From: Pezizomycotina sp. ARF18
Taxonomy: Eukaryota > Ascomycota
Direction: 5' to 3'
NCBI GenBank assembly: GCA_002224055.1
Contig: AZLU01000069.1
Coordinates: forward strand, 62,001 to 126,000
Length of the DNA: 64,000 bases
Shown: positions 26,318 through 63,807 of the stretch, in pieces
Position numbering within the stretch: position 1 is the first letter of the stretch
How the letters are laid out: the number at the start of each line of letters is the position of its first letter
Translations under genes and position numbers: made by a program
Notes under the pieces: generated by a model
Told to the model about the DNA's origin: nothing
The model's database searches: none
Seen by the model: the letters and a program-made list of their open reading frames with translations, nothing else

Positions 26318-29094
26318 ATGACGAGCCGCGATCAAGTTGTCAACAACAAGAATGACGCCGTTCTAGCAGTCTCATTTGATATTGGAACCCTTTTTTCCGG
26401 TAACCCAGTATATTCTTTCTCAATTGATATATTTCCGCCAACTACTTCATTATGACTATCGTTCGATCCGGACACGGATTCCCTGCGTTAATATTTCCTA
26501 TGCCATTTCTATTCCTTTCTATACATAAGCTGAGGATTTCAGCCAAGTACCGTTTCGCTAATCCTATGATTCTCTCCGGTAGAGGCCGCTTTTACGTCAA
26601 ACAACGAGAACAAAATCTATAGAGTTGACCAGGACGGCTCTGTAACTGCCAACACTTCCGGCTTCCAGTACCGTGTGCCAACTGCAATGGAATACAATCA
26701 CAATGAAAACTATGTCCAGTTCAACTGGGGATGGCCAGTTGACGCGCCGGAAGGGACGGTAATTCATAGATTTGAAGAATTCAAGCCTCATCTCCTACCT
26801 TCTTATCAACAATTATTGAAGGAGAAGGGGATTTCGTCCCCCTGGCTCTACACACCAAAAGACACCAGGGCTATTTTTCTAGACTATATAGCCTGTCTGA
26901 ATGAGTCCGTGGAAAATTATGCTAAAAAGCATTCCGTCAGCTACAAACCGGAACAATGCACTATTTTGTTCACCATACCGACAAGCTTTCATGAAGGGAC
27001 GGAAGGGATGAGCATGAATGAATTTAGGGATCTAATAACGTCCTCGGGCAGTCCATTCTATGGACTTCAAGATCGTGTTCAAGTCATCGATGCTTCTAAA
27101 GCCGCGGCCGAGCATTGTGTCCGTGAATTGCTGCACGCGGAATACCGGCCGATAATCTAGTATGTATATATTAACTCCAGAAAGATTTTAAAATGGTTAC
27201 GGCTTCTTTTTTTGTTATTTATTTAATTTTCTAGGTGTTCCTCTTTTATCTTCAAATTGGCGACTCTAACAAGAATAACAAAAAGGTTGGAAAGTGTATC
27301 ACGATGTGTGGCGTCGGTTTCTGGAATTGTGTATGTTTCAACATCAACTCTGATTTTTAATTATCACATGAATTACTCAGCTTAGTGTTTTCAATAGGAA
27401 GTCGTAACGTTTGGTATCGAACGTTTAGAGCCAGGGTTGGATCTTAGATTCATCAAGACGACATTGGTACGGTACCATTTCTTTTGCCGTCCTTACTTGA
27501 GATTGTTACTTGTACTAAAAACGGAACCTTGTGCTAACTAGTGTATATTGAACAGGCCACCAGTGTGGCTCTCGTAAGATTGACAGAAGCTTTCAAGAAT
27601 ACCTGCGGCAGGGAATAACTTACGAGAAAGACCACGAAAAGGCTGAAGGCAAGCATAAAATACTAGCCGACTTTCAGGGATCCGAAGAAGAATGCCAGAC
27701 GCTTGAGTCTTTTATCCAAGGGAAGGTTCTGTTTTGTAACAACAGCTTGAGAAAAGTTGAAGTCAAACTCTCCCTTCCAAAAGTCTGCCTATACCAAAAT
27801 ACGAGGGACGATTCTATTACATTGTCCAGGTATGATTGAACGTGTCACTTGCTATCATTGGGACTAGAGGCAATCGAACAGCTTCACGGCGAGTAGTAGT
27901 TGAAAGCAGTATTTTATGAGCTGCTAACCTTGATTTCATAGAGATATCATGGACTCATTCTTCAAGAAACCTATCAACAAAGTATTTTCCTACCTCGACC
28001 TTCACATCAAAGAACTTGAAATACTCAAACTTAAATTAGAGGCAAGGCCTTTTTCTTTCCCGTTGCCTTCCTGTTCTTTGTCGATCTAGTCAAATTTACC
28101 TCAAATTGACATATTATCAGCCCTATACTTTCGTTTTTCCATGTTCACAGAATTTCGCTTTCCTAAGATTCCAGCCCTCCTAACGATTTCTTGGACTCTT
28201 TAGGTAATATTCCTTTACGGAGGACTCGGCTCTACGCCTTATTTTGAGGAATCCTTGAGGCAGAAATTAGAATCTGCCTATCCTCCGACGGGAAACCCTG
28301 CTAGCAACGCCTCAAAGTACAAAACCAATAATAGCGAGTTTGAGCTTCTTGTACCAAATGATGCGTGCGTCAATCCTTTTACTTCAAGTATAAATGAATT
28401 AGCTAAAATAGCGACGACTAAATATATTTATCACGTTACAGGGAATCTGCGGTATGCCTCGGGCCGCTTCAGAGATATCTCCCAGTATCTCCGTTCAGCT
28501 ACGGGATCCTTAATTCTGAGGGTGACATCAAATGGTTCTACGACAAGGTAAAGATCTTCCACATTATTGAATGAAAATTTAACAATAACAACTTTTTCAT
28601 CTGATCCTTCAGGGAACATCATTCCTTAGTCCTAAAACTCAGTCATTCACGACCGACTTGATCATAAAAATGAGGAAGACTTGCATTACCTTTAACCTTC
28701 GCATATATCGTGATTCTGGGGATATTGCTAGGAGACCCAACTCCAAAGAAGATACAGCCTACCGTAAGCTTATTTCAAAGTTGTCATTTTGTTCCGCATT
28801 TCATCAGCTAACAGTTAACGTCTAGAAGCTGAAAACCGGTTTAAGTTGCCTATTGCATTGGAAGATATTAAGTCTTCGTACAGTTCCACCAAGAGCGGTA
28901 GCAAAAGGTTTCAAGGTTTGCACGGTAGGAAGCGCAAGGAATACTCGGTCACCATTACAACGGATACTACGAATGGCCTGAGTCTTGTCGTTGCGTACAA
29001 TAATGTCGACGGTGAGCAAAAGCAAGAAGTTGCAGGGTTCCTTAACGTTGAACAGAGAGTATGGATCTCTCCATCTCTCAGTGTCAGTGATTAA
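26318..29094 (+). CDS. Hsp70-like protein A (divergent, HSPA12-like fold; frame-disrupted)
   Basis: Nine exons by eye: 26318-26399, 26583-27159, about 27235-27331, 27398-27466, 27564-27829, 27942-28041, 28204-28547, 28613-28763, 28826-29094. Exon 1 ends in a phosphate-1-like loop (SFDIGTLFS, where canonical Hsp70 has DFGTTYS). Exon 2 carries YRVPTAMEY, ILFTIPTSFHEGTEGMSMNE and QVIDASKAAAEH. Then EVVTFGIE and CGSRKIDRSFQEYL match the region after phosphate 2. Exon 7 has the adenosine motif VIFLYGGLGSTPYFEESLR. The canonical DxGGGT loop is not recognisable. The exon 6 donor is GC (GCAAGG), giving a GC-AG intron. Frame problems occur at the exon 2/3 junction and near 28490. The family comprises actin-fold ATPases; whether this one binds ATP is doubtful. 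Preceded by a duplicated promoter block. Confidence 0.82.
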
Positions 29095-42486: not shown

Positions 42487-44824
42487 ATGCTTTCCCAACC
42501 AGCCCTCCCTTTCATCAGCTCTTATAAGACCTACAAAAAGCACACCCATAATGTTGAAAAGTACCTCTTCGAAACCGTCAAAGCGATCCGACGCGGTAAA
42601 AGGGTGCCTATTACTTCCAAGTTTTCGCCAAACGCGGACCCGCCAAAGGAAATAGTATACTCCGCACGTCCCATTCATAGAGTATGCGACCGAAATCCGG
42701 TGCGCATCTTTGGCCATAGAAGCCCCCGGGAGGTCATCTGCTACATGGAAGAAGCGCTGCACCCAAGGAGATGCGTCGCAAAGTTCTATGCCTCCCTTAC
42801 GAGGTGTGACGAGGACAACAAGTCAACCGAAGGGCACCAACGCTTTATCCAGATACTAGAGACTGTGCTAAAGCTATCGAAACCTCTGGTGGTAACAGTC
42901 GGAAGTCTCCTAGTGACGGAATCCGACAAGCAGACCAAAGAAAAGAGTAAAGCTAACGCTCCGGCAGCTGCTCTTGAAAATAAGTTTGCCGCCCTCCGAA
43001 CCTCGAAGCCCAACGATCCAGCTTTGAACATCGAGAAAAAGGTCGAAACAGCCATTTTCGCGGATGATACCGACAAGCCCACAGTTTTGAGCCGAAATAT
43101 CCAAGAAGAAAAAGTATTTAAAAAGTCGAAGAATGATCTTACTTGAGAGGATTTGGAATTCAGGCTAGATTTGGGACTCGCCGCATTTTGTTTCTTCGAT
43201 GATCTGAACAAAATCAGAGACTACATCCGGGAAGTCTGGACAAATACAAAAACAAGGATGGCAACAGCGATTGATGAACGCCGCGATCATAGCAAACACC
43301 GCCTTAGACCTCGTCTGACGCATGACGAAGAGTTCAGGCGTGCGTTTCCGAAAATTAAGTACTTCGAAGACCTCCAGAAGCACGCTATCATCGCGACGGC
43401 CAAAAGAACAAAAGTAGCAGCGACGAGGATTCTGGTAGTGACACGGTGACCACGGCTTCTCTGCTAAGAAGATGGACGACCAAAACTACTGGCAAGAGTT
43501 TTCCAAATGCGAAGAATCGGAGTGGCTCCTCGCTACGGCGCACGAAGCTATCGCAGGATTTTTGGACAAAATAAAGCGGAGTTGGCGTCCCGTATATTGT
43601 CCCCCGAAAGGTCAAGCAGGCTTTGGAGATTACCGGCCGAGGCCGTTGGAGGAAGGAATCGACCCCGACAGCCTCTCCTATCAAGAGAACAAGGCACGGA
43701 ACATATTGCACCTGCAAAACATTCTCGCAATAATCAATTGTTACATATATCTGCGGGACCCCTTTACACAGCCAGAATTCAACAACGTCTTCGTCGACGA
43801 GTCATGTTTGGAGTCAAGGAATGCATACCGGTATCACGCATACCTGGCTCGTTTTCGCCATGCAAACTTAGCTCGACATACAAGATATCGTCAGGGAGAG
43901 CATGCCCGATTGTTACGAAGAGCTCCGCCACACAGCGATAGCGATCAAGGCGTCCATCAAGATGTCGGTTATGGATCACCAATCCCGCTCGCGCCAGTTG
44001 CACGACCCCGCTTTCGAGATCGAGTACGCCGATAACTGCCTGCAGATAATCGACAAATGGATCCTCAAAGACCCAATATACGACCGGCTCTGCAACACAC
44101 AAAGTGTAGGAATATTGCCGAACCGGAGGAGAAGTCTTTCCTGACAAAGATCCACCCACTCTTGTGCGGTAGCGTCATCTTTGTATTGATTCTGTGGATT
44201 CGCAACGCGGGACTTGAGGTAGTTTCGGATTGGACTACGATTCTCGCGCCCGTCCACCTGTACAATGCCGTTATCAGTCTGGAAATCTCAAGGGACCTTG
44301 GGAAGACACGGGACGGCTCATTGAAATCCATAGCCCAGGGATATTCCGCGGGAAGAGGCCGATCACTACCGTAGAATGCTCAGACAGCTGGTCTCGTGTT
44401 CGAGAAAGCGCCACGAGAACGGCTACATATCCCCAATCGTGTAGCTCTTCGCTTCGCGCTACCTCAAGTGTGGGCAACTTGGGTGGAGCATCGAAAAAGC
44501 GGAGAAAATCATCAACGCGTCTCGAGCCTGTGACCCGGATGATACAAGCAGCGCGGGGCGCAGCAAATCAGCTCAGGATGGTATATCCATCATCAGACTT
44601 CTGCAGGCACTCGCGACTTAATGGTACTAGAGGCGCCGAAGCGCTTCGACTATCTATCCATGCACCGCCGCAACCTACGCCTTGTCTGCCGTCTGTTTCG
44701 AGTGGATATTCTGTCGTTGTTTGAAAAGGTCGGAAAGAATACGAAAATTTGGGCCGAGTTTCTTGATGACGACTGGGCCTCTCGCGGATTAGCGAGTACG
44801 CTCTTCGCGGTTCCATCACCATGA
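42487..44824 (+). pseudogene. DUF6604-family protein gene, heavily disrupted
   Basis: The ATG at 42487 gives MLSQPALPFISSYKTYKKHT and VEKYLFETVKAI, the S/T-Y-K-x-Y-K start typical of the fungal DUF6604 family. Other family-like blocks follow: CFFDDLNKIRDYIREVWTN, MNAAIIANTALDLV (other frame), HEEFRRAFP-type sequence, EEKSFLTKIHPLLCG, APVHLYNAV, a WEDTGRLIEIHSPGIF block, and KRFDYLSMHRRNLRLVCRLF near the end. The pieces are in the right order but spread over three frames, with an in-frame TGA at about 43144 and at least six frame changes. No function is established for DUF6604; members often sit at the N-terminus of ankyrin or STAND-like proteins. Probably a pseudogene, unless sequence errors are unusually dense here. 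Confidence 0.7.
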
Positions 44825-45934: not shown

Positions 45935-48252
45935 TTATCCATGCCAAGTCTCTGTTCTTATCACTTCACCGCGTTCACCTTTGATTTGAAATCTCAAGCC
46001 CAGATGGGACGCCTCGAAGGAGAACATGAAATATTTCTGGAAGGATGGCTCAAAAAGTCGCTTCCACTTCTGTAGCTTACGGCGGCGCGCTGGATTCTCG
46101 AAGGTATATTACCTTTAGAAACATGGTAGATCTGTGACTCAAAGTCGGCTACAATTGAATTTTTAATTAGCCATCGATATATTAAGTGAAGTTCTGGGAA
46201 GGGGATGCGAAGTCGGCACATACGTCGGCCACTGCTCTCTGCCACGCATGCGGGTCGGGTTTCCAGATTCCCAACATGGCGGACGATCTCAAATTCGAAT
46301 GAATCCGCTCGCTTTGTGAGATGGCTTCCGAAATCATTTATTCCGCTGTTCTCAATGCATCTTTGGCCCTGGGGCAAAGAAATATGCATGTAAGTGATTA
46401 TAATCTTTCTCTAACGTGGAGGTCTTAAATTTCGAAGTCACCTTGTCCAGGAACCACAAGTAAGAATCATCCTTATTTCTAATTCCATAGCTTGCTCTCG
46501 GCCGTTGCTGGAACTCCAAGATACTACCAAGGGCCACGGCGAATTCCCTAAAATCAATTCTTAGAATCAGAGACCACCGCCTAAAATAAAAATAAAAATA
46601 AAAATCCAATTTCGATGCTCAGATATTACTGATCACTTACGCATGCTGGGGCGTGGAGACAAGAATATCGACTTCATTTTTTGATAGTTGATTCTTTGAT
46701 CTCCCTTTGGAAGATTGAGTTAGATCCCAATCCTCCCACAAATATTGCCGACTGTTATATATTCTCACTTTTATCAGATGGACCCAAACATTAATATCAG
46801 GCTGAAGCTATACTTCAGCCAATAGTTATCATTTCTTTTCCTTCCGTTTTTCTCTATACCGGACGTAGATTTAGAAATATAAAAGGCACTTACTATTATC
46901 CTGATGTTTTTTTGGTTTCGCATTTTCCATGTGCTTAATATAGCCTTCACAGTTGCATCAACACAGGGCTGAAAGAACGATGTGAAGGTATCCCTTTCAG
47001 ATTTTATTAGCGTCGTCTTCCTTCGAAAAAGATCTTTAGGATATCTTACTCGTCTATCTTCAAGCTTCCGCCTGGATTTTGATAAATTTCGAGCCAACCC
47101 GTTCAGTTCAACTCCCCGTTCTGAGGAAACTGTGCATCCTTCTTCCACTTCATAAAAGACTCTTGGATTTTTCTTTCCTCTTCAGAACCTTTGAGGCTCT
47201 CTCTCCAAAAGTCTTTAACTTTTTTATGTAAATGAGTCAAAAATTCCTCGTCGATATCATCAGAGCGAAGTCTAGATCTGATGAGGTGTGAATTAGTACC
47301 GTTTTTCAATCCCGCTTTCCTCCTCATTTTTTTTCGAAGTGGCCGAGGTACCCACATATGTTATCAATTGGAGTACGCTTTATCGCAGGTATGGTTCTGC
47401 TTGAATTGGAGTTTTCCTTGCCGTGTGATTCTGCCGTAAGCAGATGGTACGAAAGAATTTCCTAACAGGGTCAAGAATAAACCATTAGCTCACTTCCCTT
47501 CCTGATTTCTGTTTGTAGCATAAGATATCCATTTTCCCTTCTCATCTTTAAGTAGAAGATCCGGACGCCAAATTTCTTTGATGGGCATACCGTTTTTCTC
47601 CAGCCAGCATCTAAAAGAATGAAGGCCGTATTTTCAGGATCTTTACGTAATTCCTCCAATTTGGATAACTGGAATTTCATGCCCTTTGCTTTGCTGAGGT
47701 CCCTAATCGCGTAAATAGCTGCTGCGACAGGCTGGCGTACGATAGTCCAGGGAAAATTTCGGCCATTGTTCCAGGACCTTAGAATATCCACGAAACGCTT
47801 CCTATCGATCTTCGTGAAGGAAGCAGGGACGGAGAAAACAAAGTGCCAGTTATATTTCTTATCAGGCAATGATTATCGAGCTCCTTTTCCTTGATCGTCG
47901 TGTATAACTTTTCGACGTATTCCGTAATAACCTGCTCGACGGTCCTCCCAATTTTCGCCGCTTGATGCCTCCACATGGGGCATCTATCCAACTCCTTCTC
48001 TTCCTTTTGAGCTTTTAAGTCGACGTGGCTATTGATTCTCGACATAAAGTCGTCGCATGGTGCCGCCCTCCTAGCCTCTGTAGGATACTGTGGCTTCCTT
48101 CCCTATGGCGATAAGGCTATCGTTCAGATATGCAGAGACGGCACGGATCGGGCGCAAAGTGGCGGGACCGCCCGCAGGGATCTGGGCCCAACTGCGGGCT
48201 TGTAGGTCGCTCGCCTGCGGTCATCCAAAAGGTCGACGCAGATCTCTGTGTA
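45935..48252 (-). CDS. Hsp70-like protein B, first exon missing (frame-disrupted)
   Basis: Read downward from an acceptor (ACTACACAG) at about 48253: EICVDLLDDRR, GGPATLRPIRAVSAYLNDSL, IAIGKEATVSYP, CDDFMSRINSHVD, then YNWHFVFSVPASFTKIDRKR, WTIVRQPVAAAIYAIRDL, FILLDAGWRKT, EIWRPDLLLKDEKG, DDIDEEFLTHLHKKVKDFW, AVALGSILEFQQRPRASYGI, FEFEIVRHVGNLETRP, and an end reading KRLFEPSFQKYFMFSFEAS with TAA at 45937-45935. Each block has a counterpart in gene C in the same order. The phosphate-2 loop is DAGWRKT instead of DxGGGT. The exon with the phosphate-1 loop is not found upstream, where a GA/AT microsatellite lies. At least three frame changes. Canonical ATPase activity is unlikely. Confidence 0.8.
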
Positions 48253-48508
48253 GTGGCGAGGGCAAAAAAGAGATAAATTAGCCTGCATGCCCTAGAAGCA
48301 GAAAATAGAAGCATCAGAACCAAGGCTTCATATTAAATGAAATTGAAGGAAATAAGAGAAGAACAGCATTTGCGGTGACGCATCGATGATCAAGTCGTCG
48401 CTGTTCATCGGCAGGTGAAACGAAAGATGACCCGGTAGAGGAGAGCAGCAATTGCGAAGCGAAGGAGAGAGAAGACAGGCTTGGGGGAGGGGGAAGAAAG
48501 AGGAGGAG

Positions 48509-48553
<45 letters not shown>

Positions 48554-49077
48554 TATATATAAAGTAAAGTAATAAGGAACAATACATAAAAAAAAAAAAT
48601 AAAGAAAAAAAAACAAATCAGTAAATCAATAAATCCATAAATCTAATAATAAGTAAATAATAAATAAATAATAAATACTAAAAATAAAACATATTAACTA
48701 TTTAAATAATTTGCTGGTGGACATTACTTGTTGAAAAATTCCCAAAATCAAACCGATCACAATATCCACCCCCCCATCCATGATCTTCTTTATCCAACAC
48801 CAAACCTATAGGCCAGAACTACAAAGAGAGAGCGAGGGGCTTCGACGAGGAGAGGCTTCGACAAGAGCGGGAGCTTCGACGAGAGCGGCGGCTCCGACGA
48901 GCGGGGGGCTTTGAAGATCGAGAGGCTTCAAATACGCGGGGAAAATGCAATTGGATAGCAAGTGAGAGCTATTATACAAGTCCTTTAGGCAGCTGATAGA
49001 TCAATCCCCGGCAATCTTCTTCTGGGCGTGGGCTAAAGAAACAGTCCTTGAAGCCGAGCTTAAGTAGATTGTGATTT
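48253..49077. other. Spacer with microsatellite and imperfect GCTTCGACGAG repeats
   Basis: Includes a purine-rich lead-in (48480-48511), the GA/AT microsatellite and an A-rich stretch to 48700. At 48815-48945 several imperfect copies of GAGAGGCTTCGAC / GGGAGCTTCGACGAGAGC are spaced about 17-20 bp apart. No coding frame is supported. Confidence 0.6.
48512..48560. repeat. GA microsatellite followed by AT repeat
   Basis: About 19 GA units (48512-48550) followed directly by five AT units (48551-48560). Its position mirrors that of exon 1 of Hsp70-like gene C across the inverted-duplication axis near 54.89 kb. Confidence 0.95.
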
Positions 49078-49471
49078 TTATTCTTCTAGATCTGCGGAGT
49101 TGTCGTCTTCCACATACGGCACCTCAAACAAGGGTCCTACGGTCCTTTATATGCCTTCTTCCTTCTCGCTTTCCAGTTTATATGGCTGATTTCCTTCATC
49201 CAACGCTTGGATTCAGATCGCTGTTTTGTCGACGAACCCCTCGATGAGCAAAAACCCTTCGACGGCGACTCCAATAGACTGCGTGTCCACTTCAACCCTC
49301 TTGGCAACATACCGCCACTTCTCAGCCGTCTTGGAAACAAATGCCCAAGCTAAACAAAGGCTATCAGGGCCGTACGGTCGACAAAAGCTCCTGCACGAAA
49401 TCGAAATACTTGTGCACCTTCTTTGGTGCGAAACAGTACCTTACAAATTTTATCGTTTCGCCATGGTACAT
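49078..49471 (-). pseudogene. Unrecognised gene remnant with protein-like sequence
   Basis: Starts at an ATG at 49471: MYHGETIKFVRYCFAPKKVH, KYFDFVQELLSTVRP, then (after one frame change near 49360) DSLCLAWAFVSKTAEKWRYV, AKRVEVDTQSIGVAVEGFLL, IEGFVDKTAI. The same frame continues past a TGA and a TAA with ALDEGNQPYKLESEKEEGI and TVGPLFEVPYVEDDNSADLE before the final TAA at 49080-49078. The two internal stops could derive from CGA and CAA by C-to-T change. The sequence reads as real protein (balanced composition, alternating helices and an acidic tail), but I do not recognise the family. It has no counterpart at the mirror position in the right arm. Confidence 0.5.
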
Positions 49472-51442
49472 TGACCTACGGTGCGCAGCTAAATGGAGCG
49501 AGCCATTGACGCCGTGCTTCGTTCCACTCCATGCAGGCTATCGTGGCCATTTCCTACCGGGCAGTTTGATGCGGAGCAACTCGACTCTTCAAGAATCCTT
49601 AGAATTTGGACTACAAGGCTGAGATAACGTGCCAATAACCGAACTGGAGACAAAGTCGCGGCCATTGCGTTCGGCACGCAGTGAATTCGACTCTTCGGGG
49701 AAAAAAAGAAAAAGAAAAAGAAAAAAAAAAAGGACCCGTGGCACGCGATTTTGAAGAAACCCCAGTGCCGTGGTGTGCAGAAGGACATGTCACCCCACCA
49801 CGATCTCCGTATCGTCCTGCTATTACCAGAATCTCCGAATGGCTTCTCTTATCTTCTTATCCGTCTCCCGCTCAGACTGAATTTCTTTTCTTCTCTTTTT
49901 TTTTTTTTTCTGAAAAAGAATTTAGGGTAAGAAATTCTTTACCTCCAAGTCCTAACGTCGAGGCAGCGAATATTCGATCAAACAAAGATCTAGACAAGCA
50001 CAGTACCTAATCTAGCTAGGAAAGTATCTTAACAGACAGCAACTAGCGCCGCGCATACTGAAGTGAAGTTTCTTTTCTTCTTTTTTTTTTTTTGTATAAG
50101 AACATTAGAAGCATACCTACCAGTGGCCTGAAAAAAAAAAAAAAAAAAAAAAAAAGAACTTCCTTTCTCCTTTTCCCCGTGCTTCAGAGCTGATTTTGCT
50201 TTTGCTTATTACCATTTATAATTGTAGTTATCGCCGGCGAGATACCTCCTGGCCTGCAGAGACCGGGATACTCACGTCTGCCTGGATCATTTTCCATCCT
50301 CGATCCATACATAGCTGGCTGTGGGCATGGCAAGGAGGAAGGAAAAAAATTGGGTTCATGGAAGACCCTCGGATTGATACAAAGCTGAATCCCGGCCAGC
50401 CAAGTAGAACAGTGCCCTGAAAAACATTCTATTAATATTCGTCGATGACAGTCAACATTTTCCTTCTCTTTACCACCCCTTTCTTTTCTCTCTTTCTTTA
50501 ATTTCTCTCTCTTTCTTTTTTTTTTTTTTTTTTTTTTTTTGAACCCGTGCGATGTCATAAATGGCACCTTCTGATCTAGCTATGACTCTTCATATAGCTC
50601 TATTCGGATCAGCATCGACCCCTTCTCCACGCTTTTGAACAACCCAAGCGCATTCATAAGTCGTATATTTCCTACAATCGACGCGCCAACTCTGCCTTGT
50701 TCGTTTTCTCTTCTAGCTCGCTTGCATGCCTTCATTGCCCTAGCAATTTCCTTTTGGCGTAGTCCTCCCGTTTTTGTCCTTTGAGTATCACAAGAATCCC
50801 TGGCTTCGATGTTTTCTCATTCCAATCTCCCTTAAATTCCTTGACAAGATTCTCTATTTAAGAGTAGGAGAAGAAGCCGAAGTCCGGTATGAGAATACGG
50901 AATAAGTCGTGGCGGACATCCTTCTATGACTGGTTTTCTTCTCCTGGCATTTTCCTTCTGCTTACCATAAAAATAAACTTCAGTAGATCAACAAGATGGA
51001 CCCGATTTCGATGACAATGGCGATATAAACATCATGTGTCATCATCACATGGGACGCGGATAATTTAAACCGAAAATAAAACGGTCCACTCGTGTCTCGA
51101 GCTGCAAGATCTGAGATCTTGATCACAACAACGGTGTGCCATCGCGTATTCCAACTCAACGATCCAGTCTCGAAGCGTCAGCCCCAACCTCGTAGACCTC
51201 GCTCGGGCAATCAATAAGTTATATCCGTTCCAGACTCGGACACGCCGCAAAAAAAAAAAACAAAAAAAAAAAAAGGGGGGGGGGGGGGATACTAGAGCGA
51301 GCTCCTCGGTAATAGTCTGTTCTAAATTATCTTTCTCTAAGAGTTAGTAGTATATACCCGCAAGTCTTTTCTTTCTATCTCATCATCCTGTCTTTTCCCC
51401 TCTGGTTTTCTCCGCCCGTCTTTCATCCATTTTTTATCTTTT

Positions 51443-51477
<35 letters not shown>

Positions 51478-52091
51478 TACTCTTCCGTTCTTACCATCCC
51501 CATTGGCCAACAATACTCCAGGTTTCAACCCTTCCCCCCCCCCCCCCCAAAAAAAAAAAAGGAAACAAAAAAAGAATATTATAATAATCTGGTTTTCAGA
51601 ATGATTAACACATATGTCATTAGAAGCAGCGAAGATATATATATATCGCTATCCCGTCCTTCCCAAAAGACTGGCTTCTCATGCGCTTCGAACGACCACT
51701 CTGCACATCCCCGTCGTTGCTCTGTCGTTGGGAGTTCGATTTTCCAGCCTTATGACTTCTTTAAGGTATTTTTGTGGCGTCGTTCAGGCGAACCCTCCCT
51801 GAAAATCTGTTCAGCCCTATCGCCCTTTTTTTTGGCTGCGGCTAAGAGAAAGGCAGAGAAAAGACCTGCTTGGTACAAGCATATACTCTCCTGCAAGAAT
51901 TATTGTTCTCGTTACTTTAAGTACATGTGAGCTGTTCCTGAGGCACCATGGGTTGAAAAGTGTTTCATTTAGCTAACTTAACAGGAATTTTTTTTTTTTT
52001 TTTTTTTTTTTTTAATTAAGGGGACATTGATAATGGGTGTCTAAATATATATACTGCAAGTTATCCGAAAGGGTTTAACTATCCAGTTAAA
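49472..52091. other. Intergenic region with homopolymers and microsatellites
   Basis: Holds A- or T-runs (near 50131-50155, 50517-50540, 51990-52012), an A/G homopolymer junction (51250-51289), a TCA array (51443-51477) and a C/A junction (51535-51561). An ATG frame at 51601-51930 (109 residues) is unrecognised. No RNA gene or transposon is identifiable. Confidence 0.5.
51443..51477. repeat. ATC (TCA) trinucleotide microsatellite
   Basis: About 11-12 uninterrupted ATC units. The minus strand reads as methionine codons, an artefact of the repeat. Confidence 0.95.
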
Positions 52092-52860
52092 CTAGACCCT
52101 CAAGCTTTCCGGTTCTTCCTGTTCAGGATTGAATTCTTTTCGGAAGCTCAAAGCCGGAGATTTCATGACTTGCGGGTCGGTTCGGGCCGACTCGAAGCCC
52201 TCCATCGGGGATCCTGGGAAGGTGATGGGACGGAGCTTCTGCGGCGACAAAAACTTTTGGCCAATAATCTGCGTAATAAGTCTGGGGGGAAACAAATGAA
52301 ATCGATAATCCAGTGCGCGGCAATTTTCCGCCGAATATTTATAGTTGATGCTCGATGCAGAATGGCGATCAGGTAGAACTCTAGGAAGCCTTTGAACCCC
52401 CCCAAAAAAAAAAAATTAGCCAAGGGAAACGCCAAGACCTCACGATTTACAAGGAAGGATTTTCTTCAGAGAATAACTTACCGCGCAGCCCTCATCAGAT
52501 AATGAGCTGGCGTTCTCCAACTGCTGCAGCTTTCTTATCGAACTGCCTGACCTTCTTGATCTGGTGTCCGGTTACCTTGTGCTTCGGTTCGCGGTTATAT
52601 AATCCGTTTTCCTTCCTTCGTCTGGAGAGGATTTTTTTTACGATTTAGGAGAGGTGTTCGTCAGCTCTGGATCATGGGGGTTATAACGGGCGATTGACCG
52701 TGGCAAACGTCATACGGCAGGAGAGGGAAAAAATAATCGACTAAGGCACAATACCTTCAGAATCGGAAACGTCTCCGGGAGAGGAGCTAGCCGTCGGGGG
52801 GTTCTTTTTGTCCTTTCCTTTGATGATGGCGTCTTTGAACTTCGCGAGGGCGGTGGACAT
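52092..52860 (-). CDS. Small disordered protein P1 (paralogue of P2), three exons
   Basis: ATG at 52860; exon 1 52860-52755, intron 52754-52622 (GTATTG...CTCCAG), exon 2 52621-52482, intron 52481-52282 (GTAAGT...CCCCCCAG), exon 3 from 52281. Exon 1 codes MSTALAKFKDAIIKGKDKKN followed by PPTASSSPGDVSDSE. Exon 2 opens DEGRKTDYITANRSTR, meets an in-frame TAA, and beyond it continues SSIRKLQQLENASSLSDEG in the same frame. Exon 3 in phase reads TYYADYWPKVFVAAEAPSHH and ends at 52123; another frame ends NPEQEEPESLRV at 52092. Composition is Ser/Pro/Lys/Glu-rich, so it is likely disordered. It shares intron 1 position and phase and the SPG...SE|D...TD pattern with P2. Function unknown. It may end at the TAA (about 52 residues) or be a pseudogene. 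Confidence 0.5.
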
Positions 52861-55800
52861 GGTTGCGATTTTTGCGGTCGATTCAATCTTTTTTTTCTCC
52901 TTTATGCCGTGCGTATCGTTTCGGTGGTTTGTGTGAGAGCGACGGTACGAGATCGATCTAGGAAGAGAGACTGAGAAAGACGGCGGCCTTGAGATACCGA
53001 CCTAAGGCGTTGATGGTGGGATGTCAGAGGTGGGTTGCCGACCGTGGGGTGACGACTTCGGAAAATCGATTACAGAGCGCCGAGTACGAGACACAGGACG
53101 GGGACGAAGCTAAGACGACGGCAAAGACGGCAAAGACGAAGATGAAGAAAAGGGAAAAAAGGAGAATGGAGGAGATGGAGAAGAGGCAGACCGAATCAGA
53201 CGTGTCTGAAGAAGAGACGGAGGTCAAAGCGGAAGTCTGAGAGTTTAAGGGGAAGGGCGGTTAAACGCCGGACACAAAGAATACAACGACAGAACAGAGC
53301 GACCGTCGGGAGAGACGACACGAGGAAGACGGAAGAGAAGAAGAAATAGCGAGAGAATAAGAAGAGGAAGACGCAAAAGGGGCCCCGCAGCAAAGGGCTG
53401 TTGCTGTAGAAGGCAAGCCAGTAAGATCGGGGGATACCGACTGTGGAGAGATCAGCTGTGACCTGTTCTCTTCCTCGAATCTATTCGAATTAACGTCACT
53501 TCCTACGGCAGGAGAGGGTGAGATCAGGAGGAGGAGCTAATTCAGATCGTTGAGGGGAAGTGCTTTGGCGAAAGAACGAATCTGGTTCGTTATCTTGAAG
53601 AAAGACAAGATGAGTCTTATCTGTTGGTTTCTTTTCTTTTTTTTTATCCTTATTTTCTTTGCACAACCTCCTTTTTTTTTCCTCCTGGGTAACTCCGAGG
53701 TTTTTCAAAAGGACGCTTAGTTAACGGAGGCGGTTAACAGGTAAAGCAAACTTCAACAACGCCTTTCCCGTACGGCGCCCGTAAAGGCAATTGTATGCAA
53801 AGCCACCCTAAAAGCCTCGTGATAATGTGGGTGGAGAATCCCTACCACACACTCAATTCATCTAGAACAATGAGAACAGAGAAAACAACGCCACCGACTC
53901 GACAATCCCCAGCCCGGCTTAGCGCGATTGGGTATCTACACAAAGACAAAGGCCGAGTGCCTTATTGCCAACGAACTTATTACTTACTCGTTTTTCGGCC
54001 TACGAAGGAGTTACAACATTAGCACAGATATGAAGAGAGAAGGGAGGAAACTGTATCAATGTGATACAATAAATCGAAATGCGACGTTATATTTTTTCAC
54101 CTCCGCGAGAAATAGCGTCGCGGAGACACTGGGCAAACATTCACACTCAGAAGACGGATTTTAGCATCACCACGGCTAGACCTGGAAATAAGGGCTACCG
54201 TCGGCTCAAAGGCGAGGATACGGAGGGCTGCTTTTTCGTAATTTACCAAGTGTGTTGTCAACGCTTGCTCCGACGCCGGTCGCGCGAAGAACGGAGGGAT
54301 CAGTACAATTGCCCGTTGTGGATTTCGCCCTTTCGATCAATCCCCAAGGATTTATTTATTGCGATAGTCAGATTTGGTTTTTTTGGGGTCTAGCTTTCGG
54401 GTCTCTCATCTCGCGCATGGACCTCGTTACGGTTGGCGCCCAGTTGGTAAGATTGAAGCTGAAAGTGAAAGCGAAATTGTCTCAGCAGGCCTTTGTTTCA
54501 ACCCTTCCTTAGCTTAGTTGTTATCGCCGTGATAAGTCTGCCATCGGCAGGGAATAACAAGATACAAGAGATACCAAAGTGAACAATCAAGGAAATCACA
54601 TGCAGTTGCTCAACCCCTCAGGCGTTCTACGCTGTTCTCTCTGCTTGGTTCTCTTTTCGGTTATTCGCATTAACCCCTTGTGAATCGATACGTACATTCC
54701 CCTTCTTTGTTTCTAGAGTAATAAAAAAAATTAAAATATAATAAGTCAATGAAGATGAAAGACCAAGGTTTGGTCGATATAGAATTCTGCTTTTAGTATA
54801 CGATTGGCAATTGATTTAAGGTAAGGAATACTCAAGGGTCTATCTTTACTCCACTCCTTGTGCTCGTGTGTCCTTCAAAAAATATTATTTTCTCGAGGTA
54901 TACCTATCTATAGATAAAAGGAATCTGTGCGTGATTTCAAGCCCGGCGTTTTACAGTGTCTCAGTTTTCATCCCTCTTTCGCGAACAATCGTGGATTCTC
55001 TCCACAAAGACAAAGAGCACAAATTTTTTACAGTGGCGTCCTGAACGCCTTGGTCAACCCAGCTCCACATCGACGTAACGGTTAAGTCCGCGGGTACGAT
55101 GTCACCACCTTCACAACATTTTCGAAACTAAGAATAAAATACGCCAAAAGAGTTATAACAATAACATCTTTCACAGATCGTCGATATTGATGAATCGAAC
55201 CATAGAAGCCGTCATCCAGTCTCAGTGTATCATATCATACATGCCCTTCTTTTTTTTCTTCTTTTTTTTTTGCAATTTATTTATTATTTCCCTTTTTTTC
55301 GATATTTAAAACATTGAAAGTGGAAGTTACAAGGAAAAAGAAAAGGAGACATACAGCTCTCCTTCCGAGCTGTATCAAGCTCCCCTTTCAGCTTGAGAGT
55401 ACCTCTAGTATTATTCTGAGAAAAAATAGCTATTAAAAGGGGGGGGGATTTAGTTTTGGTCCGAGGACGAGTGTAAGAGATTAGATATCGCTTTCTATGG
55501 AGCGGAAGCGAGACCTCCTCTCAGGGGAGATATCTCAGATTGTTGATAGCAAAAATAACTTCTAGCCTCATAGAACAATTAGAGTGGAACTATAACCTGA
55601 ATGATGCAAAGTAAACAAGTGAATAAACTAGGGAACAAAAAAAAAAAAAAAACGCATACCACTGAATGTACAGAACGAAATACGGCAATATCACCTCAAT
55701 AATCTAAGCTTATAAGCTGGCGAGAAGGAGGCTTGATCAAGTGGCACATGCACGATCCAGCCCTATAGAGTCTCTCTACACAAATAGCCTCAAAAATTTT

Positions 55801-56932
55801 AGACTATATATAACCCGAAGCGGGAACTCATCCATTATCGGAAAAGTCAAGATGATCGGGATAGCAAGAATACACGGTTAGGATATGAAACCAAGAAGAC
55901 CGAAGAACCTTCCTACAGTTCCTTTAGTGCGAAGGAGAGAACGCCATGGTATAGAATATATCGCGATATGCATGGTTATAGGTCGCATATCCTGTCAATC
56001 AACAAGGTATCCTGACAGCAAACCCCGATATACTACACTACCATGAAGTCGTTAAGCTCCATCTGAAAGAAGTAAAACAGAGACACGCAGGCCGATAAAG
56101 ATTGCCCCGTTGGAATGAAGGGATACACATGTTTTCAATAGAACCGCTGAAACCGGAGAACCAGCTAATTCTCTCCACGCAAGAGAAGAAAAAAGTCATA
56201 CGTACCGGAAACCCGAACCGAAGTCGGCCTTGGATCACTGACCGTTGTCGCGCTCGAACCGGCGGTTCAGGATATAGAATCTCACCCTGAATCCTCAGAA
56301 GAAACCCAATCTCAGCTCTTACACGGTCGCAAAAAAAAAAAAAAAAAAACATGTCGTCCTTACATCAATACCGTGTCTGGAAATAGTGTATCAAAGTCTG
56401 TTTTCCCTATTCAGTTAGTAAACTTAATTTCAACAAATTTGCAAAATAGCGATTCCCATTTTAGAGCCAAAGCCGTCTTTAGTGAAATTTGCTTTCCCCC
56501 TTTCTTCTGTTGATAGCGGTATTGCTGTATTTTGAAGCAGTTTTTGCTCCAAACGGATGGCTACCAGGGGAGGTTGAATTTAAGGCTGTCGCAGGACAAA
56601 GTCCACTAGCTCTGTCAACGCTAGTGCCTCTGATTCGCCTTTCAACCTCCTTTAATTTGCCCCCAAGCACAACCGAAATCGAGATAAATAGGTCTTCATC
56701 CGAGTTCCATCCTATCTCCTCTTCACTTATATACTCTCCGTAAGCTCCATCATTATCGTAAGTGTTAAAAGAATAAAGACTGTCCTCCGCAAATCTCCTA
56801 GACTATCATCTCTATATTGCCAAAGTCAACCTGCTCTCATTGTTAATTCTATAAAGAAAAAAAACGATCTTGGAACGCACCCACTGGCCTATCATTAATC
56901 CAGACTACCGAAGCGGAAACGAAAACTTCCCA
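52861..56932. other. Central spacer of the inverted P/Hsp70 arrangement
   Basis: Contains the proposed symmetry axis near 54.89 kb. At 53010-53240 a Lys/Glu-rich frame (TKMKKREKRRMEEMEKRQTE, ending EEETEVKAEV) runs divergently from P1; it may be a small coiled-coil protein or purine-rich DNA. A frame at 54252-54512 (ALSINPQGFIYCDSQIWFFW) reads protein-like but lacks ATG. Another at 56489-56743 begins with a signal-peptide-like hydrophobic stretch but also lacks ATG. No clear palindrome was seen at the axis itself. Confidence 0.4.
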
Positions 56933-57333
56933 ATGACGGACAAAACAACCAAGCCAGAGAAACTCGGGAAGCTCCTGCTCCGCCCTTTCAAAGCAAGAGT
57001 AAGAAGTCTCCTCCGGCCGATGGATCCCCTTCTCCCGGAACGGCTTCTGCGTCTGATGAAACCAGTGAAGGTTCAGAAGGTATGTCGTTTGTGATTCCCC
57101 TATCCACCTCGTACCTCGTATTTAACCAGTCTAACGCGATCTTTTGTTTTACTCTCACGTTTCTACCAATAGATGATTGGGAAGGAACGGATTTCATGCC
57201 TGCCGACCCCAGGCACCCTCCAGCAAGACGCCAGAACGAAGCCTGCAGACATTTCGACAAATTAAAGCAGAAGCAAGAGGCCGAGGGAACTTCCGGCTCG
57301 GAAATGCCTGCGGGCGAAGCCGAAAGCACGTGA
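56933..57333 (+). CDS. Small disordered protein P2 (paralogue of P1), two exons or more
   Basis: Candidate ATG at 56933 (MTDKTTKPEKLGKLLLRPFK). A frame change near 56990 leads to SKSKKSPPADGSPSPGTASA and SDETSEGSE at the end of exon 1 (about 57078). After a GTATGT...CCAATAG intron of about 92 nt, exon 2 reads DDWEGTDFMPADPRH, RRQNEACRHFDKLKQKQEAE, SGSEMPAGEAEST and stops at TGA (57331-57333). The same frame then continues to 57530 with HVPTRQFFGKEFDLGRFSGD, one more TGA, and TSSFYGALYPPQISPQNIRR. P1 has the same intron phase and a matching SPP/SPG, SE|D, TD, R...KL.Q pattern. Rich in Ser, Pro, Glu and Lys and probably disordered. Function unknown. Confidence 0.5.
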
Positions 57334-60300
57334 TGGGAACGTGTTGACGATCACGTGCCCACGCGACAATTTTTCGGCAAAGAATTTGATTTGGGCCGCT
57401 TCTCAGGTGATCGTGTCTGAGGAAATTTTCCCTCCCGATCCCGGCCGGCAACAACAACCTCGAGCTTCTATGGAGCGTTATATCCTCCCCAGATTAGCCC
57501 ACAGAATATCAGAAGGTAATTTCTCGAAGGATCATTGTCGATTAAAATCCGCAACAGGAGGTAGTGCCATCGATTTATAATCCGCGCGGGTTTGGCCTTC
57601 TCTTGGAGGGGACGAGTATATATTTGGTTACAACTACATTGTAATGAAAGCAGCAGTTATTATGCAGGTTTTAATTTGGTAGTGTATAATAATATCATCC
57701 TAATGTGTCGCGCTGCTGCTACACGGCCTTTTTGTAGTGTTATAATGTTATAACTTGCATATTAGCTTTAGATTCTCAAAACTTGTGCAATATTCCACTT
57801 ACATCTACCTTCGTTTAATGACCTTCAAGTTTCCTCGACGCTGAGCTAAACCCAACGTTCTGGTTGGTCCTCCGGTGATTACAGAAACCGGGGATGTTAA
57901 TTCTGCTACGAGAAGCAGAGTTATGCTCGGAAAGTTTGCATTTGTTTTCTCGAGACCGATTGAGATGGGTATATAGTCTTGCTCAGACTCTCCCGGAAAA
58001 AACCTGGCCGTATATCAAGCTTCGTATTGCCGGGCCGGTAATTGTGAGGAGATGCTACCGCTCGCCGAAGGAACGGAATTGTGGCATTGGAAGAACCTAG
58101 AAGATTAATGATAACAAGCGAACTCTTTTCCAAAAAGACAGAGTACCTGTAAGCGAAGCTTCCGGGAAGGAAAGAAACATTTAATCGGTTTCCCTAGATC
58201 TAAGCTCCTATCAGCCATATTCGGGGAAAGGAAAGGAAAGGAAAGGAAAGAAAGGAAAACAAGGCAAAAGGAAGTGAACGCCATCTGAATCTATATATGC
58301 GTTCCGGCTTAAGCTTTGCCTTACCTGAGAAGGGTGTTGGCGTTATGACTAAGAATAGTGTAATCCTTAGACTGGACAAAGTAACTGTTCAACGCACCTG
58401 TTCATCTACCCGATCTAAGAAGATATACCCGATCCCCCATTAGTATGATTGGGTTGACCTCAAAGTTCCCTTATCCTTGAAGACGCAAGCCTGAACTACC
58501 CTAAGGAAAATATATATATATATTGTCGTACAATGTTCGCGTAACCGCGGCTGCAGTCGTAAGATCTTGGGACGCTTCACATTCTGGAGCTTGCTAAATC
58601 GAGACAGTAAATGCCACTTGCATAAGGCGGAAACCGGTAGACAGTAAGTTACGGAGGCGGTGTTTCTTTTTTTTTTTCTGGTTCGTGCATAGTGCAAAGG
58701 GAATCCACGTCTGTTCGTTAGATCGCGTGTCAAATTGCGTGAACCGTCGACCACGTTGCGAAAGAAACAGCAGAAGAGAACATAAGGACGACAAGTGAAA
58801 AAAATAAGGATATTTCTCGTGGCAATATGTAAATTTGAGGGAGGATTGAATGCCTGTCTGATTGCAGTTCTCCTTTGTGCTCGCTAAATGGGGACTCGAG
58901 GTAAACATGATCAGTCGTTATGATCTAAATATAGAAGGGAAAATAATAGGTAATAAAAAATTTTTTAAGTGAAGTAAAGTATCGAGAGAAGATCGATGAC
59001 TATGAAGAGGGAAAAGCCGTGGACATATATATAAAAAGGGGATGCCGCAAATCACTCATGCGAAGCGGATGTTCCGAACAGGCTAAGTAGCCGCGGGTAC
59101 CGTACATATATAACTTGAGGATCGCGGGTCTGCAAAGTGAAAAGAAGTAGAAAATCACACAAGGAGAGAAGAAAATGTAAGACTCCGAAAATTATCACAT
59201 CTCACCCGAGATTTTTATCTACCCAGGGTAGTGTTTAAGAGACGAAAAAAAAAAATGAAATTAAATAAATAAATAAAAAGATAAAAGGTGGCTTAATTCG
59301 AAGAGCGAAGATATTACGTCCTAGGCTCCGCAGTGTGAGCAAATAACAATGTAATTTTCTGTACAACAGTGTACTCTTACTTTTTGAACTTTGACAAACC
59401 GACATGCCGTTAACCCGATGTATAATTGCAAATTCATTCGCTAAATTTGCAACTTCGCCTGCAAAAATAACATGTAAGGTTCTTGCAAAACAAGAACCAT
59501 ACTCATGCCGGAAACCGTTGTCGGGCTTACATCGAAACGTAAGGAGTGGATCCTGTAACTTGGATTTCAGATGTTGGTTAATTAATAAAATTCAAAGGGA
59601 CTGATTCATCTTATATTAATCTGCTGGATAAATCGCCGTCTCGAACAACGTCTTTGACACAAGTGAAGAACTAATGGAGGAAAAAAATGTCACCCTACTA
59701 AACTCGTAGAAGATGATAAAAAAATTTTCTCTTACCGCTTGTTGTGTGTACCGGTGTGTGTGTATTTATTGGAAGGTGGGCAGAAGTTATACAGCAAAAT
59801 TGGCTACGTCTACCGAGGCTGCAGGAGATCGAGATCGTTCGTTCATCCTTGCGGATTTCTGATTTTCACCCAAAATTTTAGTTCATTTATAATAATCAGA
59901 GCAATAGCGAAAGAGAGAATTTCAGCAGTATATAAGCGAGAGATACCTATAAAAAAAAGTTGTATGAGCCCCAAAGTACAGAGTGAATAAAAAATTATAC
60001 TGAAACTGTATTCGAACAAAGGAGCTAGATGCTAAGAGCCGACGTTGTGGGACGATATTCCGCGGAGCACTAGTCTCATGCCCCTGAATTTTACCCGCAA
60101 AAGTCTAGACCAGTTTCTTTAGCGAGGACTAGCTTGATTCTAGCGCTTTTCTCGAAGTAGAAGAACGACCAACCTGGTTATAGATGTCAGATAGGTGCTT
60201 GGTGATCCTAGAACCTACTGGGGATCGAAGTTTACTAAAAATTCGAGGCAAAGCTCGTCATCTGTGCATGATTTCTTACTTAGCTGCGGTTCACTCAAGT

Positions 60301-61212
60301 AACCGGCTTGTCTTTGAGTCTTATTTCATCTTTCCTTTCGTTTTTTTTTTTTTTTTTAAGAATTTAGTATACAGCTATGAGATCTTACACCGTAAAGTAA
60401 ACGCCCCATAGGAAATGGCCACGAGAGCTTGCATGAAGGAGGTTATAAAATCTGGGGACGTCTAACTGGTACTGTAGGTGCTCATGCATTTTTTTGGCTT
60501 TTTTTTTTAAAAAAAAAAAAAAAGAAAAAAAAAATACAAAAGCAAAAAAAAGGAACACTTTGTTATCCTATGAGTGATGGCGCAACTGGTTGAATACAGC
60601 CTGCAATCTGCTACTTTCGCCCAAAATTTCGCAAGGCTGAGCTTTATTCCGCGCATAGAGATTCAGCAGACAGTACCCTCGGTATTTCTAGCGTAGTGTT
60701 TAGGCGACACCTCACTTCTGAATGCTTTAAAAAAATACCCATGGATCTCAATGGATGTACACGGGCGTCCCAATATGTATCGCCAGCATGCGCTCCTCAG
60801 AATATCTACAGTGGTTGAAAAATAATCCTGCAACTTAGCAGAGCCTGCGGCGAAAATGTTTTTTCGAAGGCGCTCAGCAGTTGCAATCGTAGATCATTGA
60901 TTGGAAAAGAGGATGCAGTACTCTTATATCATTCCTTCATCAATGGATGAAGTGGACGGGTAAGATAAGCACTCCACCTCATCTTCCCGAGAGCTATATA
61001 TATATAGAGGTAAATGTTCTCGCGGGTCTTTCTTTTCAAACAACCAGAAGAAAATCCGGGGCAGATACTTCTCGACTATTGTTCTCAAGGATAGTCAGCA
61101 ACACGATCCAGCTGGAGTATTTGTTCATCATCCCCACGCTTTTCCACTGTATTCATTCTCTCGCATAAATTTATCGATTTTGCCTCGTAACTGTCACTTT
61201 GGGGCTCTCAAG
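57334..61212. other. Intergenic region between P2 and Hsp70-like C
   Basis: 57334-57530 remains open apart from one TGA and may be a former C-terminal extension of P2. Elsewhere there is a GGAAA array (58226-58256), T runs near 58667 and 60342-60357, and an A-rich patch at 60509-60550. Small ATG frames (57894-58100, 59404-59604) resemble nothing known. Confidence 0.5.
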
Positions 61213-63807
61213 ATGGAGGGTGTAGGACGGGGGATAGATATTGTTTTCGGTGTGGATTTTGGGAATTTCTCAACAAGTTCGCCCCACAATACCCTCATCA
61301 AAGACTTTTGCCTATTTTTCTTAAAAAAAAAAAAAAGTAGGAATATATATATCAAAATACAAGCAAAAGATCGAATTAGAAAACCGAAACTCGAACTAGG
61401 CTCAAAATAGCAATACTATTTATTTTTCTTCTATATAACTTTATTACAGGTCACTGGTCCGTTGTCGTTGCTCAAGCTAAGTTCTCTTCTTTCTTGTATT
61501 TTCATTGATTGTTTTCATATAGAAATCTCTGTCGATTTGCTTGATGCTCGAAACGGACGACAGTCGGGACCTGCCTGCTTCAAACACGGACCAGTAACTC
61601 TGGAACCTATCCGTACCACGTCTGCTTATCTCAATCAAGATATTATCGCCCATGGACAGGTGGCCACAAAATACCCGAACGATAGTCTGAAGGCGGCGGT
61701 ATGCTTGGACGACTTCATGTCCCGGCTAAACAGTCACGTCCAGGCAGTGATGAAAGCAGATCCAAATGCTCGGCAACCTCTCTGGAATACGAACCTGCCA
61801 ATGTTTGCAGTTCCACGGAGGCAATCATCTTAGAATTCATTGAAAGAACCTTTACCAGTCTCGAGTGGGATGTCTTCAAACAAAGGTGGCCTAAGGAAGA
61901 CTATAACTGGTCCTTTGTTTTCTCCGTACCTGGCTGCTACGATAAAGCCGAAAAGAAGTGCTTCGAAAACATTATAAAACTCTGGAACAAAACCAGAAAT
62001 TTTAAGTATATTGTCATTCGGCAGCCTGTTGCTGCAGCCATTTATGCAATAAATCATCTCTACAAGGCGGAAGATACGAGGTCCCGGCTTGATGTGCCGA
62101 AATTTGAAGCGCTGCTTGAGGCACCAAGAACCAGTGGTTTCATTTTAGTCGACGCGGGATGGAGGAGGACGGTATGTCCCGCTTGTTTAAATGGTCAACT
62201 ACTTCTTAAGAGCTTTAAAAGGGAAAAATGAGATAATTTGAGAGTATCGAGAAATCAGTATGAGTAACGATGGTAGCTTACATTTCGGCTTTCATTGTAG
62301 GAAACGATCTCCTTCCATCTTGTTAAGACAAAACCTCGAATACGGGTGAAGCGAACCCCACTAAGAAGCATATGTATTGCATTCCCAATTAAAATATTTG
62401 AACCTCTCTATCTACTCCGAGAAACTTACTCTGAGCCTTTTTGCAGATAACTATGTGGGTTCTGATGTGGTCGACGAGATGTTCACGGACCACCTGCGCG
62501 GTAAAATAAAAGGCCATTGGCGAGACGATTTCATTGGGTCTCAAGACGAGAGGAGAACAATAGAATCTTTTATCAGCTGGAAAACAAAAGCAGAACATTC
62601 TCACCCCGCCAAAATAAAATTATACGGTATAGGTACGAGGTGTATAGAAAATACTGACGGCTTTTTGAATATTGATGAGTATGATATTTTAACTACCACC
62701 TACAAACAATACTTTCAACTAACAATGCAAGCTAAGATATTGTATCAATTCGTTCTTCGAACCCTGCGTCACCGAGACTATCAAGACGATAATGCAGCAC
62801 AGAGAAGCCGCAAGACTTAAAAATATCGACATCAAGGTGAGAAGCTTAAGAAAATTAATATTCTCGCCTAGTTATGTGCCTTACGAATTTTCGCGTTGAT
62901 GATTACGCGATAGACTGTTAACTATTCGCACAACTCTTCCGCCTAATTATAATTTGATAATGAAACTAACGAGCAAAACAGTCCGTTGTATTAGTTGGAG
63001 GGTTAGGATCCAATGCTCTCTTCGAGAGAAAAATTAGGCAGCATTTTAATAGGGAAAATATTGATATCAGCGTCAGCGCCTCTCGAGATGCGTAAGTGTC
63101 CCTCGGAGGATGGAGAGATCGATTTTTCAAACGAAGTTACGCCTTCTTCTAATATCTTACTATGCAGTGGATTCGCTGTAGCTCGCGGTAGCATACTCGA
63201 ATTCCAGCAATGGCCATACTTTGACAGAAATTCATCGAAAGTGAGCTATGGGATCAAGCATAATGACGGTTCCTACGAGTGGTTCTTGACCAAGGTGATT
63301 CATTCCTTCACATATCCTAGAGAACGAAATGTGTGCTGATAGGTATTTGATTGGTGTGTTGTGAAGGGACAAATTTATCGGAGCAGAAAATTCCAGAATT
63401 TCAAGCATACTATTTACTTTAGCAGCCTTCGTGAAACGAATAACTCTCTCGACTTCGAAATCGTCCGCGATACGGGTGATTTAGAAAGCCGACCGACTTC
63501 TGTGACGAAGAGTCTTGGTCGGTGTACGTATCTCAAAAACATCACCTATATCTGTGTAAGCTCTACTAACTTTACATTTCGTGAAGTGAACATCGAGAAT
63601 AAACCGTTTAGCGTGGACCTAAGTGGTGTACACCTTGACAAAGTCCATGCACCACATATAAAACGATTTTACAAACCATCGACGTACCAGAAATGCTTCA
63701 CGCTGTCCTGTAAAGTGATAGACCAGGAACTGGTATTCAAAATCACTTACGATGGCGACAAGGTGATTGATGCTGGAACTTTAGATGAGTTGGAGTTAAC
63801 ACTCTAA
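61213..63807 (+). CDS. Hsp70-like protein C (divergent, HSPA12-like fold; one frame shift)
   Basis: ATG at 61213. Exon 1 61213-61276 ends in a phosphate-1-like loop (FGVDFGNFST). Exon 2 61523-62171 carries ISVDLLDARNG, HGPVTLEPIRTTSAYLNQDI, DDFMSRLNSH, IERTFTSLEW, YNWSFVFSVPGCYDKAEKKC, YIVIRQPVAAAIYAINHLYK and FILVDAGWRRT, where canonical Hsp70 has DxGGGT. Then NYVGSDVVDEMFTDHLRGKI, the adenosine motif VVLVGGLGSNALFERKIRQH (donor at 63090), AVARGSILEFQQ, VSYGIKHNDGSYEWFL, and a last exon from about 63343 reading DFEIVRDTGDLESRPTSV and ending DAGTLDELELTL-stop at 63807. One frame change near 61800. It is the most complete of the three paralogues. The C-terminal third resembles no canonical Hsp70 substrate domain, as in other HSPA12-like proteins. 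Confidence 0.85.

Follow-up and report, generated by a model that had tools for sequence, protein, structure and literature searches.

A gene for a small acidic Ser/Pro-rich protein (P), followed on the same strand by a gene for a divergent Hsp70-like protein, is found in four copies on one contig of the ascomycete Pezizomycotina sp. ARF18. This array is real, with one of its units inverted and with P1 as its weakest member by sequence. Two of the units, P1-B and P2-C, are located in the window, which denotes the whole 64,000-nucleotide stretch analysed (positions 62001-126000 of contig AZLU01000069.1, here C69), and the other two, P3-D and P4-E, lie beyond it, where coordinates above 64000 extend the window numbering along the same contig (Table 1). 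The analysis has covered almost the entire contig (196,259 bp), and genome-wide searches have been run against the 46.4-Mb assembly of 408 contigs. A first-pass annotation of the window had proposed a mirror-image duplication of a linked pair; the duplication of the pair has been supported and extended by the two further copies, whereas the mirror image fits only two of the four units. We propose, with about even confidence, that a two-gene unit of P and a divergent Hsp70/HSPA12-like gene on the same strand has been duplicated locally to give P1-B, P2-C, P3-D and P4-E, one of them in inverted orientation, and that the two proteins are functional partners.

The repeated gene pair

Searches of the contig with the genes of the cluster (tblastx and tblastn) have revealed D and E and, as more distant relatives, A, F and G, the last of which is tentative. 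In all four members of the B-E clade, a P gene lies upstream of the Hsp70-like gene on the same strand, and the distance from the P start to the Hsp70-like stop amounts to 6926 bp in P1-B vs. 6875 bp in P2-C, with 4972 bp in P3-D and 7069 bp in P4-E. Between B and C, DNA similarity has been found in inverse orientation over 149 bp at 70% (47706-47854 against 62050-61902, expectation value (E) 1e-12) and in exon 1 at 86% on opposite strands (E 2e-9), and tblastx aligns the two over 352 codons, in 13 segments, with 53% amino-acid identity. Judged by these matches, B and C are genuine paralogues in inverted orientation.

A single phase-1 intron after acidic codons is readable in each of the four P genes, with exon limits and introns predicted from the GT/AG letters of the splice sites. 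The intron is followed by an exon 2 of the pattern PADPxxPxxxxQNExxxxxDK, which is best kept in P2 and P4 and looser in P3, and which P1 fits weakly outside its match to P2. In tblastn searches with exon 2 of P2, the best non-self places have been 75000-75077 (E 0.004) and 67230-67361 (E 0.014), with the next at E 0.25. Both are on the plus strand in the spacers directly upstream of E and D, and the chance that the two best matches fall one per spacer on the right strand is ∼5e-4, as calculated post hoc. A hidden Markov model of the same exon alone, run against 8170 open reading frames (ORFs) of the contig, has placed P4 (E 0.011) and then P3 (E 0.8) next in rank after P2 itself, and with a profile of P3 and P4 the first non-self match in this set has been P2 (E 0.0014). 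When sequences were shuffled with preserved composition, the exon-2 score was equalled in 0 (P1-P2), 1 (P2-P3), 0 (P2-P4) and 5 (P3-P4) of 2000 shuffles each, and the exon-1 score of P1-P2 in 12 of 2000. The intron phase that the first-pass annotation had described as common to P1 and P2 has held, as read from the GT/AG letters, and the check it had named for them, an alignment better than that of shuffled sequences, has been passed; P2, however, is not open in one frame from 56933, as exon 1 is broken once near 57.0 kb, and P1 is broken once in exon 2. From this resemblance we conclude that P1 and P2 are homologous. The P protein is probably disordered, and a scan of P2, P3 and P4 against Pfam has given no family. 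An N-terminal amphipathic helix, considered for P1-P3 only, has been discarded as inconsistent, with shuffles as good in 564 (P1), 85 (P2) and 11 (P3) of 2000.

The geometry of the two window units has been interpreted before as a symmetry preserved to within 25 bp. The underlying coordinates, 45935 and 63807 for the gene ends and 52860 and 56933 for the P starts, are correct, as is the arithmetic of the midpoints quoted, but the Hsp70-like start codons (48781 and 61213) have their midpoint at 54997, some 100 bp away from the three others, which makes the agreement depend on the landmarks chosen. We have therefore rejected a preserved palindrome, and the symmetry reduces to similar unit lengths. 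In a global alignment of the two arms, windows of 100 columns outside the Hsp70-like genes show identities of 0.29-0.54, which leaves the DNA unalignable there, with nothing to distinguish the windows over P (0.43-0.54); identities over the Hsp70-like exons are 0.5-0.67 in many windows and 0.37-0.47 in others. Local searches have found one conserved island of 41 bp upstream of B and C (85%, E 1.5e-6), and besides it only A-rich runs outside the Hsp70-like exons. The absence of excess similarity beyond these exons, which had been named earlier as a check on the duplication, is accordingly nearly true for DNA and untrue for P at the protein level. A search for a third gene in the spacer has turned up only this island, and upstream of D, E, A and G it has no significant match (shuffles as good in 10, 39, 158 and 181 of 200, respectively).

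Table 1. Coordinates of the P genes, the Hsp70-like genes and the conserved island in window numbering.
Feature	Position	Strand	Details
P1, small acidic Ser/Pro-rich protein	52495..52860	-	exon 1 52860-52755; phase-1 intron; exon 2 from 52621, with a single frame break
Hsp70-like gene B	45935..48781	-	ATG to stop, introns and frame breaks included; matches C; DFGNFSTS 48749-48726; WHFVFSVPASF 47848-47816; RQPVAAAIYAI 47737-47705; FILLDAGWRKT 47623-47591; FAVALGSILEF 46543-46511; stop 45935
41-bp conserved island	49527..49567	-	∼770 bp upstream of B ATG; local search
P2, same family as P1	56933..57333	+	exon 1 56933-∼57079; exon 2 57173-57333, which carries the motif PADPRHPPARRQNEACRHFDK; a single frame break in exon 1
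Hsp70-like gene C	61213..63807	+	introns and frame breaks included; MEGVGRGIDIVFGVDFGNFST 61213-61275; exon 2 from ∼61522; WSFVFSVPGCY 61908; FILVDAGWRRT 62139; FAVARGSILEF 63172; stop 63807
Counterpart of 41-bp island	60399..60438	+	∼800 bp upstream of C ATG; same 85% match
P3	66902-67397	+	upstream of D; MPPGQAIPSAAKK...; exon 2 EEAVVQFENPDSKNPLSRNQNN...; same phase-1 intron readable
Hsp70-like gene D	69364-71873	+	beyond the window
P4	74766-75083	+	upstream of E; MGKTSSPPPP...; exon 2 EEYARRKLLTPADPQNPVCAQQNE...; same phase-1 intron readable
Hsp70-like gene E	79252-81834	+	beyond the window
Hsp70-like gene A (part)	26360..28550	+	VLAVSFDIGTLFSG 26360; TILFTIPTSF 26960; SAVCLGPL 28446; SYGILNSEGDIKWFYDKV 28497-28550
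Hsp70-like gene G (tentative)	from ∼89.3 kb	-	matches F at E 0.08-0.5
Hsp70-like gene F	∼97.6-96.1 kb	-	more distant relative

Motifs and substitution pattern of the Hsp70-like genes

The label Hsp70-like refers to an ordered series of motifs together with very weak profile and fold matches, and no sequence hit in Pfam, NCBIfam or the PDB stands behind it. The phosphate-1 motif of Hsp70 proteins is of the DLGT/DFGT type, and near the N terminus we have found DIGTLFSG in A, DFGNFST in B and C, DIGTS in D and DFGTVCTS in G; E has only AVDLGPLA, which lacks the T, the motif of B is in a different frame from its ATG, and none has been seen in the translated stretch of F. The motif of A is, as we take it, close to the phosphate-1 motif of HSPA12. 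The phosphate-2 loop DxGGGT, which reads DLGGGTFD in the canonical HSP70 of this genome, is absent and has been replaced by DAGWRRT in C, DAGWRKT in B, DVGSVKA in D and DVGAGNL in E. Near the end of the domain, FAVARGSIL (C), FAVALGSIL (B), YAVAQGSIM (D), YAVSRGMLM (E), SAVCLGPL (A) and SAVCLGSL (F) presumably represent the adenosine motif. A profile of A and F has matched the profile of B-E in hhalign with a probability of 95.7 (E 9e-9). Foldseek, run with a segment of C, has returned 284 matches at E <= 10 and none at E <= 0.001, with no Hsp70 in the best 50 of the 284; the predicted fold of the A ORF (mean confidence score, pLDDT, 37.5) has not been used.

Substitution among B-E is concentrated at third codon positions. 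The mismatch at codon positions 1/2/3 has been determined as 0.335/0.281/0.548 for B-C (352 codons) and 0.400/0.349/0.687 for C-D, and the third-position value ranges from 0.55 to 0.71 among the B-E pairs. In 180 runs of neutral simulations of C passed through the same pipeline, the difference between positions 3 and 2 never exceeded 0.111, vs. 0.267 for B-C; the control is inexact in that the simulated copies were free of indels and retained more codons (749-862 on average). By this pattern, B-E are seen to retain codon-like substitution. For the P genes, the corresponding values are 0.37/0.37/0.53 for P1-P2 (19 codons), 0.38/0.35/0.65 for P2-P4 (26), 0.48/0.39/0.61 for P2-P3 (44) and 0.57/0.24/0.62 for P3-P4 (21).

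In the own genome, D as the query has found eight matches, all eight on C69 and all within B-E, C has recovered C, B and D and missed E, and A and F have recovered only A and F. P2 and P4 have each recovered only themselves, and P3, besides its own gene, three matches at E 0.2-3.7 (C2 0.2, C33 2.3, C146 3.7), of which the P-like match on C2 has been dismissed as low-complexity sequence.

The proposed partnership and its alternatives

The repeated pairing suggests, without proving it, that the two proteins work together, and it is plausible that P is inherited together with an altered HSPA12-like protein as its small partner. The conserved PADPxxPxxxxQNExxxxxDK stretch could then serve as a short docking motif for the neighbouring Hsp70-like protein, which itself may act as a nucleotide-dependent or pseudo-ATPase holder rather than as a cycling chaperone, a reading suggested by DAGWRKT and DAGWRRT standing in B and C instead of DLGGGT. 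More speculatively, the divergence of the four pairs might keep partners matched, as in fungal self/non-self or stress-sensing families. The furthest extension, in which P would be a dedicated, co-evolving client or activator of its own neighbouring pseudo-ATPase and the four matched pairs would form a recognition or stress-sensing module with its specificity in the pairing of P with the Hsp70-like protein, we consider unlikely.

Several results weigh against this proposal. No P gene has been found beside A, F or G among the best ten contig-ORF matches of each P profile, and the start codons of P and the Hsp70-like gene are 2.5-4.5 kb apart, which is far for a co-regulated fungal pair. Within the P family, exon-2 shuffles have been as good in 674 of 2000 cases for P1-P4 and, still a weak result, in 52 of 2000 for P1-P3, so that P2 is the link by which P1 belongs to the family; in exon 1, only the pair P1-P2 scores better than shuffles, and P1 ranks ninth of the best ten with the profile of P2, P3 and P4 (E 4.6). 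The trend by codon position in P is weak, at 19-44 codons per usable pair. The genome-wide queries with P2, P3 and P4 have missed even the other known P genes, and they are consequently too weak to rule out P genes that lie apart from Hsp70-like genes. For the larger proteins, PF00012 of Pfam has not been matched by the chained C or the A ORF, the Hsp70 families of NCBIfam not by the chained C, the A ORF or a piece of D, and the Hsp70 sequences of the PDB not by the chained C. The partnership itself is inferred from gene layout and sequence.

The principal alternative is passive hitch-hiking, in which a segment with both genes has been tandem-duplicated and inverted and their functions are unrelated. 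Tandem duplication carries neighbours along regardless of function, the spacers are long and no physical tie between the proteins is in evidence, and we regard this explanation as somewhat improbable but a serious contender. The units are old, as seen from the third-position mismatch among B-E and from the unalignable spacer DNA of units 1 and 2, yet all four units still have both genes, with their order and orientation unchanged. The constant position of P upstream on the same strand, always with one readable phase-1 intron, could also mean that P forms the 5' portion of the Hsp70-like gene across a very long intron, or is a controlling leader transcript. In-frame stops follow the motif in P2, P3 and P4, and an ATG directly precedes phosphate-1 in B, C, D and E, which make this reading very unlikely; to our knowledge, introns of at least 2 kb are moreover exceptional in ascomycetes.

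A decaying cluster, in which B, C, P1 and P2 are pseudogenes, would account for the several frame breaks in B and C and the single ones in P1 and P2, and D and E are broken too. Actin (C382:14800-15874) and the canonical HSP70 (C49:53036-54818, also on C70) switch frame in the same manner across gaps too small for introns. Such breaks are thus expected from the assembly and have not been read as decay, and with codon-like substitution between the copies, pseudogenes appear distinctly unlikely. Conserved genes show about three frame flips per kb as counted by eye, and the assembly looks indel-rich. That the P similarity has arisen by chance between low-complexity sequences finds some footing in the Ser/Pro/acidic composition, the weak pairwise scores and the two of six exon-2 pairs (P1-P3 and P1-P4) that shuffles equal as given above. 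Set against the other four pairs, the top-two rank and location of P3 and P4 and the common intron phase, it is the least credible of these explanations, with a very slight probability.

Among known systems, HSPA12A and HSPA12B (PMC2266713) resemble the genes described here in having ordered Hsp70-type motifs with poor overall similarity, and that paper reports homologues from vertebrates alone among the genomes searched there. The present genes differ in that they give no family-level sequence match and in that B, C, D and E have a changed phosphate-2 loop. The atypical Hsp70s SSE, SSZ and LHS of ascomycetes, limited in their ability for a full cycle and partners of other proteins (PMC3879978), offer a functional likeness; they are low-copy and matched to canonical Hsp70s, whereas here a local multicopy array is far more divergent and four of its copies stand beside a small gene. 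In layout only, the non-self pairs of HET-S and NWD2, in which the gene of a smaller protein is clustered with that of a large nucleoside triphosphate-binding protein, are comparable (PMC3321046); B-E, however, are not NACHT proteins. In a literature search of titles and abstract openings within limited sets of listed papers, a pairing of a P-like small protein with an Hsp70-like protein has not been described; a paper on Ophiostoma names one Hsp70-like gene and has been left aside. Should the pairing prove functional, it would give the divergent Hsp70-like genes of fungi a partner that can be tested, and the four-unit array would supply natural variants with which partners can be matched or mismatched. 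With their altered phosphate loop, B and C would be candidate Hsp70-derived pseudo-ATPases.

Other features of the locus

Weak minus-strand matches to P profiles upstream of F and nearby (104388-104480, 110504-110551 and 93475-93540) have been translated and set aside, as no P-like motif was seen by eye. From an all-against-all tblastx comparison of the cluster, in which chaining made the E-values meaningless, only the leads to F and G have been taken further. Scans of the 64-kb window for transfer RNA genes and Rfam families have found none. A gene of the NPHP3_N type, a NACHT-like STAND protein, is located at 15958-18325 of the window, with a Pfam match of E 1.4e-20 in its first ORF (15958-16653) and none in the ORF that follows. 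Fungal immune-receptor regions typically carry NACHT-like genes, which is circumstantial for this locus. A gene with a DUF6604 domain has been found at 42481-43143 (E 2.6e-13), some 3 kb away from where B ends. The region 38000-41000 has a GC content of 0.58-0.59 and contains low-complexity Gln/Pro/Ala-rich ORFs in several frames, and directly upstream of A, near-identical short direct repeats occupy 25790-26220 (mostly 84-100%, one 65%, in ORF comparisons).

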